The notes beneath the pieces are model-generated. The model was not told where the DNA came from. It searched no databases and worked only from the letters and a program-made list of their open reading frames with translations. From Poseidonibacter lekithochrous (GTDB taxonomy: Bacteria > Campylobacterota > Campylobacteria > Campylobacterales > Arcobacteraceae), in NCBI RefSeq assembly GCF_013283835.1, contig NZ_CP054052.1:2480001-2544000 (forward strand): DNA of 64,000 bases, read 5' to 3'. Numbering within the stretch: the stretch's first letter is position 1; every line of letters begins with the position of its first letter. Position numbers and translations under genes: made by a program. Below are positions 20,020 through 51,007 of the stretch, piece by piece.

Positions 20020-20430
20020 TTAGTTCATTGAGTAACCAATATTAGAATGGTTCTTAATTAGGTCATAATATGTTTTATCTCTTAAAGTTTTCACTTTATT
20101 TCTTAGAGTAAATCTAGTCATATTTTTACCTTTCCAAGCAACACTATGAATTGTTTCAATAGGAACAATCTCACCTTTATTCTCTAATAATAAAGAGAAT
20201 AGAGCTTCTTCAATTCTTGTTAACTTAACCTGCTCATCGTAGCTGTTGAATAGTTTTGAAGTTGCTTTGTTGTAATAGAAACCATTGTCTAATTGAACAA
20301 TACTATTAATGTCTTTTTCAATTAGTTTACCGATGTACTCATCAAGTGTAATATTCAGTTTATTGATTTTTTCATTTAACTTAATATTGTCACTATCGTT
20401 TATAGAAATATTTAATTTTAAATCTTCCAT
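20020..20430 (-). CDS. Orphan winged-helix DNA-binding protein (OmpR/PhoB C-terminal type, no receiver)
   Basis: A 136-residue regulator. The C-terminal part (about 50-135) has the OmpR-family effector layout: an N-terminal strand block (DNGFYYNKATSKLF), VKLTRIEEALFSLLLENKGEIVPIETI, a recognition-helix region with FTLRNKVKTLRDKT, and the wing SNIGYSM. The first 45 residues replace a receiver domain and have no phospho-acceptor site, so phosphorelay control is unlikely. AAAGGAC precedes the ATG. It stands alone between two long non-coding stretches that carry shared TATAGCA repeats, which suggests autoregulation. Confidence 0.82.
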   Translation of the reverse strand: MEDLKLNISINDSDNIKLNEKINKLNITLDEYIGKLIEKDINSIVQLDNGFYYNKATSKLFNSYDEQVKLTRIEEALFSLLLENKGEIVPIETIHSVAWKGKNMTRFTLRNKVKTLRDKTYYDLIKNHSNIGYSMN

Positions 20431-26352: not shown

Positions 26353-26529
26353 TAGTTTTTTATAGCCTATTTTTTAATTTCGACATTCTACTAAAAAATG
26401 TTTTAAAGTATGTATATTTTAAACCCAATATTTAATTAGTATCTTAAATTAATAAAATTTCATTTTAGATTCACTTGTGATTCATTTGTAAAAACTAAAC
26501 TTACTTTATAAAAACACAAAGGACAAAAA

Positions 26530-26886
26530 ATGAAAATATTAACAAATATATTATTAGTATCAGTATTAGGACTAGGATTTGCACAAGCAAAAGACAAAGA
26601 TTATAGTGCAAGTATAGAAGGTGAGCAGGCTTTAAAAGTTGGAGTAAATCAAATAAATGTATCAATTAAAAGTAAAACTATTCCAGTATATAACGCAGAT
26701 GTAAAACTAAAAGTATTCCAAGAAAACAATAAAATCATAACTTATAAAACAAAAAAAATAAACAAAAAAGGAAAATATGTGTTTAATGTAAATCTAGAAC
26801 AAAAAGGAATATATAACTATCTTTTATCTTATAATCGAATGGGTGGAGTAATACATAGAGTTAGAGGGGATTGGGAAATTAAATAA
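26530..26886 (+). CDS. Small periplasmic Ig-like/FixH-like protein
   Basis: A 118-residue secreted protein with a clear signal peptide ending LGLGFAQAKD (cleavage near residue 20). The mature part is all-beta: ALKVGVNQINVSIKSK, IPVYNADVKLKVFQ, GKYVFNVNLEQKGIYNY. This recalls the FixH/YtkA-like beta sandwich, but no metal-binding motif stands out, so no function is assigned. AAAGGAC precedes the start, and a strong terminator follows, so it is a single-gene unit. Confidence 0.7.
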   Translation: MKILTNILLVSVLGLGFAQAKDKDYSASIEGEQALKVGVNQINVSIKSKTIPVYNADVKLKVFQENNKIITYKTKKINKKGKYVFNVNLEQKGIYNYLLSYNRMGGVIHRVRGDWEIK

Positions 26887-45939: not shown

Positions 45940-45981
45940 ATAAATAAAATTAATACAGCAACATCTATATACTTGTATCTA

Positions 45982-46014
45982 TTCACATTTTAGTCACACT
46001 AAACCTGCTAGCAT
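45982..46014 (+). promoter_or_regulatory. Set B promoter of the SDR gene
   Basis: TTCACA at 45982-45987 and GTCACA at 45993-45998, 11 bp apart, then 10 bases, then TAGCAT at 46009-46014. Three more promoters in the window share this design. Confidence 0.75.
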
Positions 46015-46034
46015 TAAATAAAAAGTAGGTTTAT

Positions 46035-46988
46035 ATGAAAGCAAATAAAATTCCAGAAAGTAAATTTAAAAGAATATTATGCTGGACTTGGAGACAAAAA
46101 TCAAGAACTAATATATGCCCAGATTCTCCATCTTTAGAAGGCAAAATAGTAGCCATTACAGGTGGTACTAGAGGTATAGGATTAGAGACAGTAAAAGGAC
46201 TATTAAAAAGAGGTGCGGAAGTAATAGTCCTATCTAGAAACAAGAAAAAAGACAAAAATATAATTAGAGAATTAAGAGGCAAAGTCTATTTTGTATCATT
46301 AGATTTAGGGAATATTAAATCTATTAGAAACTCCATAGAGAAATTAGAAGATGTATTAATGGGCAGAGAAATTGATGTATTAATCAATAATGCAGGTATG
46401 GCAGTAAAAGGTGAAACACAAGTATCTCCTCAAGGATATGAGTTAAGCTATGCTGTAAATGTATTAGGTCATCATATTTTATTTCAAGAGTGCCATAGGA
46501 AATCTTTGTTATCTGAAAATGCTCATATTATTGCGGTAACTGGTGATATTTATTTTTTAGAAGATGATTGCACCGCTAATTTTGTATATATAGGAAACAA
46601 AGGAGTTAATGCCTATTCAAGAAGTAAATTGGGAGTAATGTGGTGGGCACGAAAAATATACAATTTATATCCCCAATATAAAATTAATATAGTTCATCCA
46701 GGCGTAATACCAATGGGGCTAGGAGCGAATCAAAAATCAATCTTTAGTCGTTTATTAAGTAAGGCACTTTTGACTCCTAAAGAAGGTGCCCAAACTACAC
46801 TAATATGTGTAACTCAAGCAGATATTGAAAATGGAGCATATTATCATAATGCCCTAGGTAAAGCTACTCTACCAGAAAGCGATCCAGTATTTAATCTTGA
46901 AAAAGCAGATAAATTTTGGAATGAACTAGAAGATATATATACAAATAGTTATAAAAATGATTTTAGTCTTGATAGAGCTTTAGCATAA
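46035..46988 (+). CDS. Short-chain dehydrogenase/reductase
   Basis: A 317-residue NAD(P)-dependent oxidoreductase of the extended WW-oxidoreductase/retinol dehydrogenase-like type. The cofactor loop is TGGTRGIG (about 39-46), then NNAG at the end of strand 4, and the active-site YSRSK. The catalytic Ser position reads AVTGD rather than the usual SS, so a Thr may serve. The first 33 residues are basic and precede the Rossmann fold (RILCWTWRQKSR). No membrane segment is clear. It carries a Set B promoter shared with the two-component system at 48313. The substrate is unknown. Confidence 0.85.
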   Translation: MKANKIPESKFKRILCWTWRQKSRTNICPDSPSLEGKIVAITGGTRGIGLETVKGLLKRGAEVIVLSRNKKKDKNIIRELRGKVYFVSLDLGNIKSIRNSIEKLEDVLMGREIDVLINNAGMAVKGETQVSPQGYELSYAVNVLGHHILFQECHRKSLLSENAHIIAVTGDIYFLEDDCTANFVYIGNKGVNAYSRSKLGVMWWARKIYNLYPQYKINIVHPGVIPMGLGANQKSIFSRLLSKALLTPKEGAQTTLICVTQADIENGAYYHNALGKATLPESDPVFNLEKADKFWNELEDIYTNSYKNDFSLDRALA

Positions 46989-46995
46989 TACAATA

Positions 46996-47020
46996 GAAGA
47001 AATAGGAAATCTATTTCTTC
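46996..47020. terminator. Perfect 10-bp hairpin between convergent genes
   Basis: GAAGAAATAG and CTATTTCTTC with a 5-base loop. The right arm contains the stop codon of the MBL-fold gene on the other strand. Confidence 0.6.
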
Positions 47021-48111
47021 CACCATTCTTCAAGCTTTATAGGAGGGGATAATATATCTATTACTTCTCCCATCTTAGGAATTAGAACATTTGTTTTTTC
47101 TTTTTTAGCTAATGTAGAAATTCTCTCCATGGGTTCATTCCACGGATGAAAAGATATTTTAAATGTACCATTATGAATAGGAACTAATAGTTTTCCTTTT
47201 AGATCTTTGTGTGCTTGGATTGTTTGTTCTGGAAACATATGAATATACTCAAATCTTTCATTATATTGTCCATTTTCCATAAATGTTATATCAAAGGGTC
47301 CATATTTTTCACCAATTCTTTTAAAGCCATCAAAATACCCAGAGTCACCACTAAAGAAAAGTGACTTACCATTTGCTCTTACAACCCAAGAACTCCATAA
47401 AGTTGATGCTCTATCAAAAAGCGTTCTTCCTGAGAAATGTTGTGAAGGTGTTGAAATAAGTTCAACATCGCCAATCTTTGTTGATTCCCACCAATCTAAA
47501 GATCTTATTTTTTCTTTAGGAACTCCCCATTCTACAAGTCTTTTACCTACACCTAGTGGAACAATAAAATAGTTGACCTTATCTTTTAATCTTATAATAG
47601 CTTCTTCTTCTAGGTGATCATAATGATCATGGGAAATTATAATTCCCTCAATTTGACCTACACTATCTAAATCAAGTGGTACTGGATGAAATCTCTTCCA
47701 GCCAATCCATTCATAAGGTGTAATAAAGTCCTCAAATACTGGATCAGTTAACCATACCTTACCTTCAAGTTGAAACATGATACTTGAGTGTCCCAATCGT
47801 GTATAATGAAAAGCCTCTTTATTATCTATATAGAAATTATCATAAGTAACTTTTTTAATAGGTAAAAGCTCTTTGGGAATACTTCCTGGTTGTTCAGTAA
47901 AATATATACCTTTAAGACCTTGATACATCTCGCTAATACTAAATTCAAAATCTGGCATTTCTTTTTTATTTACAAATTTGCCCTCTTTATATTGAGGCGA
48001 TGATTCAATTCTCTCTTTTATAGCAAGATTATCTTTAGCTAAACAACCACTTATTCCACCTGCAATAAGTACTATTTTTAATATAAGTTTCATATTCTTA
48101 AATCCATACAT
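47011..48111 (-). CDS. MBL-fold metallo-hydrolase lipoprotein (NAPE-PLD/UlaG-like)
   Basis: A 366-residue zinc hydrolase predicted to be exported and lipidated: the signal ends IAGGISGCLA with the Cys near residue 23. The metal motif is IISHDHYDHL, then QHFSGR, FSGDSGYFDGF and the late PIHNGTF, the layout of the NAPE-phospholipase D and RomA group. AAAGAG lies 7 bases before the ATG. Its -10 box (48140-48145) puts the transcript start about 22 bases upstream, which supports this start over a later ATG at 48093. A Set B promoter links it to the adjacent two-component system. A phospholipid or lactone substrate is possible. Confidence 0.85.
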   Translation of the reverse strand: MYGFKNMKLILKIVLIAGGISGCLAKDNLAIKERIESSPQYKEGKFVNKKEMPDFEFSISEMYQGLKGIYFTEQPGSIPKELLPIKKVTYDNFYIDNKEAFHYTRLGHSSIMFQLEGKVWLTDPVFEDFITPYEWIGWKRFHPVPLDLDSVGQIEGIIISHDHYDHLEEEAIIRLKDKVNYFIVPLGVGKRLVEWGVPKEKIRSLDWWESTKIGDVELISTPSQHFSGRTLFDRASTLWSSWVVRANGKSLFFSGDSGYFDGFKRIGEKYGPFDITFMENGQYNERFEYIHMFPEQTIQAHKDLKGKLLVPIHNGTFKISFHPWNEPMERISTLAKKEKTNVLIPKMGEVIDILSPPIKLEEWWKK

Positions 48112-48139
48112 TTTTATACTCTTTATTTTTAATTATCTT

Positions 48140-48172
48140 ATTTTAATAAAAGAGATGTGACCGTAGTGTGAA
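48140..48172 (-). promoter_or_regulatory. Set B promoter of the MBL-fold gene
   Basis: On the minus strand, TTCACA and GTCACA lie 11 bp apart (48156-48172), then 10 bases, then TAAAAT (48140-48145). Confidence 0.75.
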
Positions 48173-48189
48173 CATCCATAAAAAATAAG

Positions 48190-48222
48190 TTCACGTTTTA
48201 GTCACAAGGAAATTGATAGAAT
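48190..48222 (+). promoter_or_regulatory. Set B promoter of the two-component operon
   Basis: TTCACG at 48190-48195 and GTCACA at 48201-48206, 11 bp apart, then 10 bases, then TAGAAT at 48217-48222. It lies back to back with the MBL promoter, so one regulator could serve both and autoregulate. Confidence 0.75.
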
Positions 48223-48312
48223 TAAATAGGAAATAAAACAAGTCCATTTACAATTAATTATCTAAAGATTTTACAAATGTTAGTTATTATTAAAAATATG
48301 AAGGTTCAAAAA

Positions 48313-48978
48313 ATGAGAGTATTAATAGTAGAAGATAATCTAGATTTAGCTGAGAGCATATCAGATTATTTGAGTATTCATGGATGCGACTGTGACTTTG
48401 CATACAATGGCGTTGCAGGTCTAGAGTTTGCTTTAAAAAATGAATATGATATATTTATTTTTGATATTGCAATGCCTAAAATGGATGGCTTAGAGCTTTG
48501 TAAAATACTTAGAGAGAAACACAACAACCAAATACCAATTTTATTTTTAACGGCAAGGGATACTTTAGATGATAAAGTTGCTGGATTTGATGCAGGAGCA
48601 GATGATTATTTAGTTAAACCTTTTGAGTTAAAAGAGCTACTTATTCGAATAAAAGCACTGTATAAAAGAGTTATTAACAAAGAAAGTATATTAAATATTG
48701 ATGACTTAAGTATTAATTTAAATACTCAAGAAGTAAAACGAGATAATCAAAGTATATTTTTATCACCAAATAACTATAAGATTTTAGTTTTATTAATGCA
48801 ACGATCTCCAAACTTAGTCACAAGAGAAGAGTTAGAGCATTTTATTTGGATGGATGAAACTCCATCTAGTGATTCTCTTAGGAGTCATATATATAAACTT
48901 AGAAAACAAATAGATAAACCTTTTAAAAAAGAGTTGATTCAAACTATAAAAGGTAGAGGTTTTAGGATAGTATCATGA
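48313..48978 (+). CDS. OmpR-type response regulator (Set B candidate regulator)
   Basis: A 221-residue regulator. The receiver (about 1-115) has VLIVEDNLDLAES, the phospho-acceptor Asp in IFIFDIAMPKMDG, FLTARDT and YLVKPFE. The winged-helix domain (about 125-221) has QSIFLSPNNYKILVLLMQR, HFIWMDE, SLRSHIYKLRKQI and TIKGRGFRI. The ATG at 48313 begins the conserved strand and has AAGG upstream; two earlier in-frame starts (48277, 48298) lack it. It overlaps the kinase start by 4 bases. Four nearby promoters carry the same tandem half-sites, including its own. Confidence 0.92.
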   Translation: MRVLIVEDNLDLAESISDYLSIHGCDCDFAYNGVAGLEFALKNEYDIFIFDIAMPKMDGLELCKILREKHNNQIPILFLTARDTLDDKVAGFDAGADDYLVKPFELKELLIRIKALYKRVINKESILNIDDLSINLNTQEVKRDNQSIFLSPNNYKILVLLMQRSPNLVTREELEHFIWMDETPSSDSLRSHIYKLRKQIDKPFKKELIQTIKGRGFRIVS

Positions 48979-50276
48979 AGTTCACAAGAAGTATTCGATT
49001 TAGAATTATAATTGCTTGTATTGTTTTTGCACTAATTGTAAGTATTATTTTTGGATTTATTTTAAAAAAAAGTATAAAAATAAATGCTGATGAGCAGTTT
49101 AATTGGCATACACAAAAAGAGATGGTTCATTTTTTAGAAGAGTATAAAAAAGACCAAAATACAAAATTTAATTTACCAAGAGGAAAAATACTCATTGGAA
49201 AAGAAAAAGATGCCATTAAATACCTAAAAAATATGATTGACAAAAAAAATTCTACTTTTACTGAACAAAAATTAGAAGACATTCCTTTAAAAAGATTTCA
49301 GAATACTACTGAGAAAGGATATACTTTTTATTATTATGATTTTGAAAAAACAGTCATATATCTAATAAAAGCCCCTATTTTAGATGATAAAAGCTTAAAT
49401 ATGTACTACTTTATTAATCTTACTGGATTTAATACAACAGATAATATGGGAGCAAATATTGCACTAAACTTCTTTTTTGTTGTAATAATTCTAATATTAA
49501 TTTTAGCTATTTTAATTGGTTTTTATATTGCAAAAAGAGTTCTTTTGCCACTTACAAACCTCTCTTCAAATGTCGACAAAATAGAAATAGGAGAATACGA
49601 AAGCAATGTAAAAGATTATTACAATGATGAGATTGGTTTTTTAGCAAAAACTATTGATACCTTTGTTGTAAGAACTTCTAAATTTATCCAAAGAGAAAAA
49701 GCCTTTACACGAGATGCTAGTCATGAACTTAGAACACCAGTTGCAAGCTCACAAGCTGCACTTGATGTGGCATTTGCATTACCGCAAGGACAAGACCCAA
49801 AAATGCAAAAGGTTTTAAATAGAATACAAAGAGCAAATAAAAATATGACTCACTTAATAGAAAGCTTTTTAATTCTAGGAAGAGAAAAACAAAAAAATTC
49901 AAATAAACTATCTTTTAATTTAAAAGAATTAGTAGATAACTCAATCATTAAAAACAGCTATTTATTAAAATCAAGTGATATAAAATACAAAAATCACATT
50001 AAGGAAGAACTAACAATCACCCTAAATAAGGATTACTTATCAATTGTAATTGATAATATAATCCGAAATGCTTTTGTACATATGGAAGAAGGTACTTTAG
50101 ATATAAACTTTACAAACAATTCTTTCATAGTTCAAGATAGTGGGGAATGGTTTGATGAAAAAAAAGAGTTAGGTATTGGATTGAATATCGTAAAAAGAAT
50201 CTGTAAAGAAGAAAAATGGAAACTGTCAATTTCCACAAAAAAAGATATAGGTACAATAATAGAGATTAGCTTTTAG
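48975..50276 (+). CDS. Membrane sensor histidine kinase (HisKA, HAMP)
   Basis: A 433-residue kinase. Transmembrane segments at about 9-29 and 158-182 enclose a periplasmic sensor of about 125 residues with no recognised fold. HAMP follows (YIAKRVLLPLTNLSSNVDKI). The H-box is TRDASHELRTPVASSQAAL, unlike the HQWRQPL kinases elsewhere in the window. The ATPase part is short and divergent: NIIRNAFVHM for the N-box, QDSGEWF for G1 and GIGLNIVKRI for G2. It is translationally coupled to the regulator before it. The signal it senses is unknown. Confidence 0.9.
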   Translation: MKFTRSIRFRIIIACIVFALIVSIIFGFILKKSIKINADEQFNWHTQKEMVHFLEEYKKDQNTKFNLPRGKILIGKEKDAIKYLKNMIDKKNSTFTEQKLEDIPLKRFQNTTEKGYTFYYYDFEKTVIYLIKAPILDDKSLNMYYFINLTGFNTTDNMGANIALNFFFVVIILILILAILIGFYIAKRVLLPLTNLSSNVDKIEIGEYESNVKDYYNDEIGFLAKTIDTFVVRTSKFIQREKAFTRDASHELRTPVASSQAALDVAFALPQGQDPKMQKVLNRIQRANKNMTHLIESFLILGREKQKNSNKLSFNLKELVDNSIIKNSYLLKSSDIKYKNHIKEELTITLNKDYLSIVIDNIIRNAFVHMEEGTLDINFTNNSFIVQDSGEWFDEKKELGIGLNIVKRICKEEKWKLSISTKKDIGTIIEISF

Positions 50277-50281
50277 ACTTA

Positions 50282-50308
50282 TTCCCAAAAGTAAAATACT
50301 TTTGGGAA
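50282..50308. terminator. Perfect 12-bp hairpin between convergent genes
   Basis: TTCCCAAAAGTA and TACTTTTGGGAA around a 3-base loop, between the kinase and the beta-trefoil gene. Confidence 0.75.
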
Positions 50309-50318
50309 GATGATAAAA

Positions 50319-50861
50319 CTATGGTCTATTAAAATACCAAGTTGATCTTTTAACATCAGTTTGTGAGCACTCTTTCATATATAAAGTTCTCCAAGTATGT
50401 GCTGGAGAATATGTAACTGAAGACTCATTTCCCATTTCTAAACATTTATTTGAGTTTTTATGTTTTAGTTTCTTGTCTTTTGTATATTCAAATTTCTGCA
50501 TAAATTTAGCACTTTGAAATGGCGTATCAACATTACATTTTTGAAGAGTTAAACTTGTATAGTCTAAAACATATTTATTAACACCTGAAATAGTCGCACA
50601 TAAATCGTAAGCTGGAAAATATATTGTTCCATCTTTTTTAAACTCAAAAGCTTCATCTGCATATAGTCCTGGCTTACAATTATGACCTATTAAAGGTAAA
50701 TCAGCTCGTATATATTCTCCAGAGCCTGCAACATCGAGACAATAGCCATCTTGTGGTCTATCAAGTGGGTCAATCAATTTAATATGATATGCATTACTTT
50801 GAGCAAATAAGCTAGATATCATCATACTTAATAAAAAATTCATTAGTAGAAATTTTTTCAT
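50319..50861 (-). CDS. Secreted beta-trefoil (ricin B-lectin-like) protein
   Basis: A 180-residue exported protein. The signal peptide runs to about residue 21 (LLSMMISSLFAQS). The mature part shows the trefoil repeats: GYCLDVAGSGEY, AYDLCATISG with LTLQKCN, and NKCLEMGNESS with LYMKECSQ, ending TWYFNRP. Cys pairs at repeat ends suit disulfides, as in R-type lectins. This is a single-domain protein with no attached catalytic module. AAAGGA precedes the start, and a Set B promoter controls it. Carbohydrate binding is inferred from the fold pattern. Confidence 0.75.
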   Translation of the reverse strand: MKKFLLMNFLLSMMISSLFAQSNAYHIKLIDPLDRPQDGYCLDVAGSGEYIRADLPLIGHNCKPGLYADEAFEFKKDGTIYFPAYDLCATISGVNKYVLDYTSLTLQKCNVDTPFQSAKFMQKFEYTKDKKLKHKNSNKCLEMGNESSVTYSPAHTWRTLYMKECSQTDVKRSTWYFNRP

Positions 50862-50887
50862 TTTTTATCCTTTGTGATTTTGTATTA

Positions 50888-50920
50888 ATTATAGATAAGA
50901 CTATGTGAACGTTATGTGAA
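50888..50920 (-). promoter_or_regulatory. Set B promoter of the beta-trefoil gene
   Basis: On the minus strand, TTCACA and TTCACA lie 11 bp apart (50904-50920), then 10 bases, then a consensus TATAAT (50888-50893), 27 bases before the ATG. Confidence 0.8.
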
Positions 50921-51007
50921 CACAAAATATTAAAATCAATTTATGTACATATAATTCATCATATCATATAATCCCAAACTCAAAAAAAAACTGCAAAAAA
51001 GAGAATC

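Follow-up and report, generated by a model that had tools for sequence, protein, structure and literature searches.

Genes of the islet

The window, that is, the whole stretch of 64,000 nucleotides of Poseidonibacter lekithochrous DNA analyzed here, contains a 5-kb islet of five genes and four copies of a tandem TTCAC box (Table 1). Two of the genes are predicted from their sequences to form one operon for an OmpR/PhoB-family two-component system, consisting of a response regulator (RR) and its cognate histidine kinase (HK), with the HK gene overlapping the RR gene by 4 nt. The acceptor residue of the RR is Asp51, located in FDIAMPKMDG, and its recognition helix is SDSLRSHIYKLRK; in the HK, the HAMP and HATPase Pfam matches are significant though below the cut-off, and the structure model has a mean pLDDT of 69, with a weak sensor region. 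Elsewhere in the window, the C-terminal half of a stand-alone protein (20020-20430, minus strand) resembles an OmpR-type winged helix, with no obvious receiver domain. Among the remaining products of the islet, the metallo-beta-lactamase-fold (MBL) lipoprotein carries, as read from its sequence, the lipobox ISGC after the Met at 48093 and the metal motif SHDHYDH; it matches the NAPE-PLD structure PDB 4qn9 over residues 31-333 (E 1.7e-47) and is a predicted NAPE-PLD-like hydrolase. A second NAPE-PLD-like MBL protein, 49% identical to that of the islet, is encoded in the same genome (G000:C1:25414-26280) without a box.

Table 1. Genes and tandem boxes of the islet, in window coordinates
Feature	Coordinates	Strand	Characteristics
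Islet with the whole regulon, five genes and four boxes	45953-50937		Delimited by breaks in DNA homology to relatives
Box 1, SDR promoter	45982-46014	+	TTCAC(45982-45986)-N6-GTCAC(45993-45997)-N11-TAGCAT(46009-46014)
SDR-family oxidoreductase, 317 aa	46035-46988	+	Pfam adh_short, E 1.7e-25; TGGTRGIG and YSRSK motifs
NAPE-PLD-like MBL-fold lipoprotein, 366 aa	47011-48111	-	Pfam Lactamase_B_2
Box 2, MBL lipoprotein promoter	48140-48172	-	TTCAC-N6-GTCAC-N11-TAAAAT
Box 3, RR/HK operon promoter	48190-48222	+	TTCAC-N6-GTCAC-N11-TAGAAT
OmpR/PhoB-family response regulator (RR), 221 aa	48313-48978	+	Pfam Response_reg (PF00072) and Trans_reg_C (PF00486), above cut-off
Membrane histidine kinase (HK), 433 aa	48975-50276	+	Pfam HisKA, above cut-off; SHELRTP H-box
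Secreted ricin-B-type beta-trefoil protein (lectin), 180 aa	50319-50861	-	Pfam Ricin_B_lectin, E 3.8e-9
Box 4, beta-trefoil promoter	50888-50920	-	TTCAC-N6-TTCAC-N11-TATAAT

Number and position of the tandem boxes

The RR/HK operon and the three transcription units around it each have one box in front, and the tandem layout that the first-pass annotation had described as common to four promoters was confirmed by re-reading and by exact search. The full pattern, TTCAC-N6-KTCAC-N11-TANNAT, is found four times in the complete genome of 3,568,672 bases, always within the same 4.9 kb, while the reversed-pattern control gave no match across the whole 3.57 Mb and the dinucleotide-shuffled window gave no full-pattern match; the pattern is thus far from being equally common at random sites, the outcome named beforehand as one that would speak against it. 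Even the bare repeat TTCAC-N6-KTCAC, without the -10 box, occurs in the 64-kb window only at the same four positions, against an expectation of 0.15. When up to two mismatches were allowed, 52 genome sites were obtained versus 73 in the controls, which is the background level, so that no wider regulon is hidden in the P. lekithochrous genome at that level of relaxation. The first-pass annotation had also named further matches before envelope genes as a result that would support it, and none was found outside the islet; its description of an envelope-directed set applies to two or three products, and fails for the SDR, in which no signal peptide or other export signal was found, and for the genome at large, where no box lies outside the islet.

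From the transcription start points predicted on the basis of the -10 boxes, leaders of about 14-28 nt would precede the start codons of the SDR, MBL and lectin genes, a length that fits the boxes being parts of real promoters; the leader of the RR gene would measure about 84 nt. Boxes 2 and 3 stand back to back, with 17 bp between them, and the sequence of the RR box is TTCACGTTTTAGTCAC. Shortly before the gene of a small exported protein (26530-26886), at 26459-26502 of the window, lies the triple repeat TTCAT-N6-TTCAC-N6-TTCAT, a degenerate relative of the box that is possibly a weak site or one belonging to another regulator.

Limits and origin of the islet

DNA homology to the nearest relative (G095) breaks off at 45952, directly behind arsP, and homology to another relative (G094) restarts at 50938, just before an ABC-F gene. 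The edges thus lie nearly at the outer boxes, box 1 being 29 bp from the first edge and box 4 17 bp from the second, and the stretch that varies is the one occupied by the boxed genes. Each junction was defined with a different relative, no single relative having been found in which both flanks are joined as a clean empty site; neither repeats nor a tRNA were found flanking the islet, and its base composition is ordinary, with no deviant GC content.

The HK is absent from the 398 other genomes of the order at E<=1e-30, and within the family none of the 103 other genomes has the SDR (E<=1e-40) or the lectin (E<=1e-6). The RR likewise has no close relative in those family genomes that were searched, and for the MBL protein only relatives of 42-49% identity occur, in 14 of the 103 genomes. 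Searches of a plasmid collection for the islet and of viruses for the RR gave no match, and the closest lectin relative in the plasmid collection, from Aromatoleum (42%), lies in unrelated surroundings. Six plasmid-borne MBL homologues were examined, three of them in records without a gene table; in the three with gene tables no RR/HK pair lies directly beside the MBL gene, which discards the idea of an MBL-two-component pairing kept elsewhere, and in two of these three a TetR regulator adjoins it. Judged from these sequence comparisons, the islet is apparently foreign, horizontally acquired and self-contained, and not a genome-wide envelope regulon; as its ancestral source we infer marine gammaproteobacteria.

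Proteobacterial relatives of the regulator

In a scan of GTDB genomes, the closest relatives of the RR were those of Litorilituus lipolyticus (L130, 62% identity) and of a gammaproteobacterial MAG (L131, 61%), followed at 46-52% by proteins of Arenicella, Oceanospirillum, a Desulfobacterales bacterium and Oxalobacteraceae. Both L130 and L131 have tandem TTCAC boxes, arranged back to back as are boxes 2 and 3 of the islet, between the RR gene and a divergent gene for an RND-pump adaptor; the RR box of L131, TTCACGTTCTAGTCAC, differs by one base from that of the window, and the kinases of L130 and L131 are 41% and 38% identical to the islet HK over the full length. The presence of an equivalent tandem box in the same place beside homologous RRs ties the box to the islet RR and not to chance, and the retention of boxes and kinases in both loci indicates that regulator and operator remain associated in different phyla, with a change of the divergent target. 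The earlier proposal that the RR at 48313 governs a local regulon including its own operon is accordingly well supported as a prediction from sequence. Among RRs with less than about 52% identity the box loses regularity or was not seen, and no clear box was seen upstream of several more distant RR relatives (45-51%). In the Desulfobacterales genome (L134), a run of four alternating TTCAC/TTGAC half-sites with an 11-bp pitch, about 117-170 bases ahead of the RR gene, faces away from it, toward a divergent PepSY-like gene that is followed by an outer-membrane efflux-like gene; this PepSY-like neighbor recalls the PepSY-like target in Campylobacter described below.

The box in Campylobacterales and its relation to DccR

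Within the family, exact matches to the pattern were found in 10 of 104 genomes, P. lekithochrous included. At least five of these matches sit inside the alanine racemase (alr) coding sequence (L031, L034, L037, L038 and L039), a coincidence within coding sequence by which a simple motif scan would be misled, and the regulon was not found to be kept in sister species. Across the order, the pattern occurs in 69 of 399 Campylobacterales genomes, with about 75 sites outside P. lekithochrous versus about 13 for reversed controls. Most of the inspected sites precede genes whose products are short exported proteins or parts of transport systems, and in 9 of 35 inspected regions an RR gene, usually with a kinase gene, lies just upstream of the box. 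In several of these nine regions (L101, L104, L105, L108, L110, L112, L114, L120 and L127) the box precedes genes for cytochrome c-like proteins, lipoproteins or other exported products. In Campylobacter-like genomes it stands before a MacA-like adaptor (Cj0606-like), a PepSY-like protein, which we tentatively take to be Cj0200c-like, and a conserved exported protein of 120 aa. Cj0200c and MacABC have been assigned to the DccRS regulon, which comprises dccR and six further genes, whose products are periplasmic or membrane proteins, and DccR has been reported to enhance transcription of its targets; its site is reportedly WTTCAC-N6-TTCACW over the -35 region. DccR orthologues were recognized by the presence of a second RR about 3.2 kb away, as in Cj1223c/Cj1227c (in Campylobacter, DccR has CprR as its neighbor), and one of them has a box with one mismatch before dccR. 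A DccR-like regulon family thus appears widespread in Campylobacterales, and the operator type is not new, since the box runs across the order.

The islet RR is not itself a DccR orthologue. In the phylogenetic tree it falls inside a gamma/betaproteobacterial clade (100/99), beside L130 and L131 (99/88) and apart from the DccR-like RRs; a joint clade with DccR was rejected (p-AU 2e-77), as was one uniting the RR, DccR and the motif-linked RRs (p-AU 3e-6). The recognition helices nevertheless agree between the lineages, being SDSLRSHIYKLRK in the window, SDSLRSHIYKLRS in L130, SELSLRAYIKNLRK in DccR and SDSSLRTYIKKLRK in L120, with the common pattern SxxSLR[AST][YH][IV] (core LR[STA][HY][IV]); the helix NVITAHISYIRKK belongs to RRs of the order that lack the box and have a closer overall score to the window RR. 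The common helix may go back to a deep common ancestor, or the two lineages may have arrived at the code separately. A broader reading, offered tentatively and with some doubt, combines two propositions, namely that two separate RR lineages, the proteobacterial one of the islet and the DccR-like one of Campylobacterales, read one TTCAC-N6-TTCAC operator through the common helix pattern, and that the islet is a complete regulon, with the regulator and all and only its targets, which was moved whole, its targets being swapped and its operator and regulator kept.

Proposed mechanism and alternatives

The islet probably represents an acquired, self-contained regulon, in which the RR activates the four boxed units and nothing else in the genome. 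The kinase would sense an envelope signal and phosphorylate the RR, two monomers of which would bind head to tail on TTCAC-N6-(T/G)TCAC with an 11-bp pitch; the bound site, about 11 bp before the -10 box, would cover the -35 region, and sigma-70 RNA polymerase would be recruited in the manner of PhoB. The units switched on would be the RR/HK operon itself, the phospholipase-type NAPE-PLD-like lipoprotein, the SDR oxidoreductase and the secreted beta-trefoil lectin. Both the phosphorylation of the RR and its binding are what we infer from this arrangement. Envelope or lipophilic stress as the signal is a guess, prompted by the relatives that control efflux pumps and by the lipid-hydrolase-like target found here.

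Activation appears likelier than repression by analogy with DccR, given its reported enhancing effect. The RR might instead bind the boxes and repress, from a site over the -35/-10 spacer, until released on signal; the box does overlap the polymerase-binding region, and autorepression of two-component operons exists, which counts in favor of such a role. In PhoB, head-to-tail half-sites of 11 bp that replace the -35 element about 10 bp from the -10 box constitute the activator layout, and it is this layout that the tandems of the islet display; a like box, moreover, precedes reported members of the DccRS regulon, for which DccR has been described as an activator, and repression is on these grounds unlikely. 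Sigma-70 promoters of Campylobacterota often have no -35 hexamer anyway, so its absence is no proof of activation. That the boxes are operators of another resident DccR-like RR, the islet RR not being the binder, finds some basis in the nearly identical boxes of unrelated DccR-lineage RRs of the order, and is improbable considering that the box is mostly missing from other genomes of the family, is restricted in P. lekithochrous to the surroundings of the islet RR and accompanies the gammaproteobacterial homologues of this regulator. Finally, a chance cluster, conceivable for a short TTCAC motif in an AT-rich genome, or a set of duplicated promoter copies without regulatory meaning can practically be dismissed in view of the empty shuffles and genome-wide controls, the differing flanks outside the boxes of the four promoters and the conservation of the box at homologous loci.

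As a natural example of a self-contained regulon the locus is unusually clean, with one regulator, four boxes, five genes and no further sites in 3.57 Mb, and it seems that a whole regulatory circuit was built or moved as one unit. The gammaproteobacterial comparison distinguishes what was kept (RR, HK and operator) from what was exchanged (targets), and the combination of TTCAC-N6-TTCAC with the helix pattern provides a testable operator for predicting uncharacterized DccR-like regulons in Campylobacterales.

Comparison with known systems

The islet resembles the Pho box of PhoB in having 11-bp tandem half-sites over the -35 region, with TTCAC as its own half-site, although its RR is not PhoB, scoring 156.2 bits against the NCBIfam PhoB equivalog versus a cut-off of 296.2. 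In Campylobacterota, the PCE regulon of Sulfurospirillum, governed by RR2 of TCS2, consists of locally clustered transcription units that include the two-component system, with direct repeats over the -35 region (PMC7755780). It is thus, like the islet, a local and self-including regulon, whereas its half-site arrangement is CTATW-N17-CTATW and its genes serve organohalide respiration. The systems of L130 and L131 share with the islet orthologous-looking RR and HK and the back-to-back boxes, and differ in that the divergent target is an RND pump instead of the MBL lipoprotein and that no SDR or lectin gene adjoins. The DccRS system of Campylobacter jejuni (Cj1223c-Cj1222c) is alike in the tandem TTCAC box, its spacing and the recognition-helix pattern, but its RR is not orthologous, its regulon is scattered instead of gathered in one islet, and its targets are wholly different, those of the MacABC and Cj0200c types being absent from the islet set (SDR, MBL lipoprotein and trefoil protein), with no other box in the genome. 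The gene set appears undescribed, as the first-pass annotation had supposed in knowing of no regulon with such membership; what is new is this membership together with the unusually self-contained, apparently acquired form, while the operator and the regulator are of a known kind.
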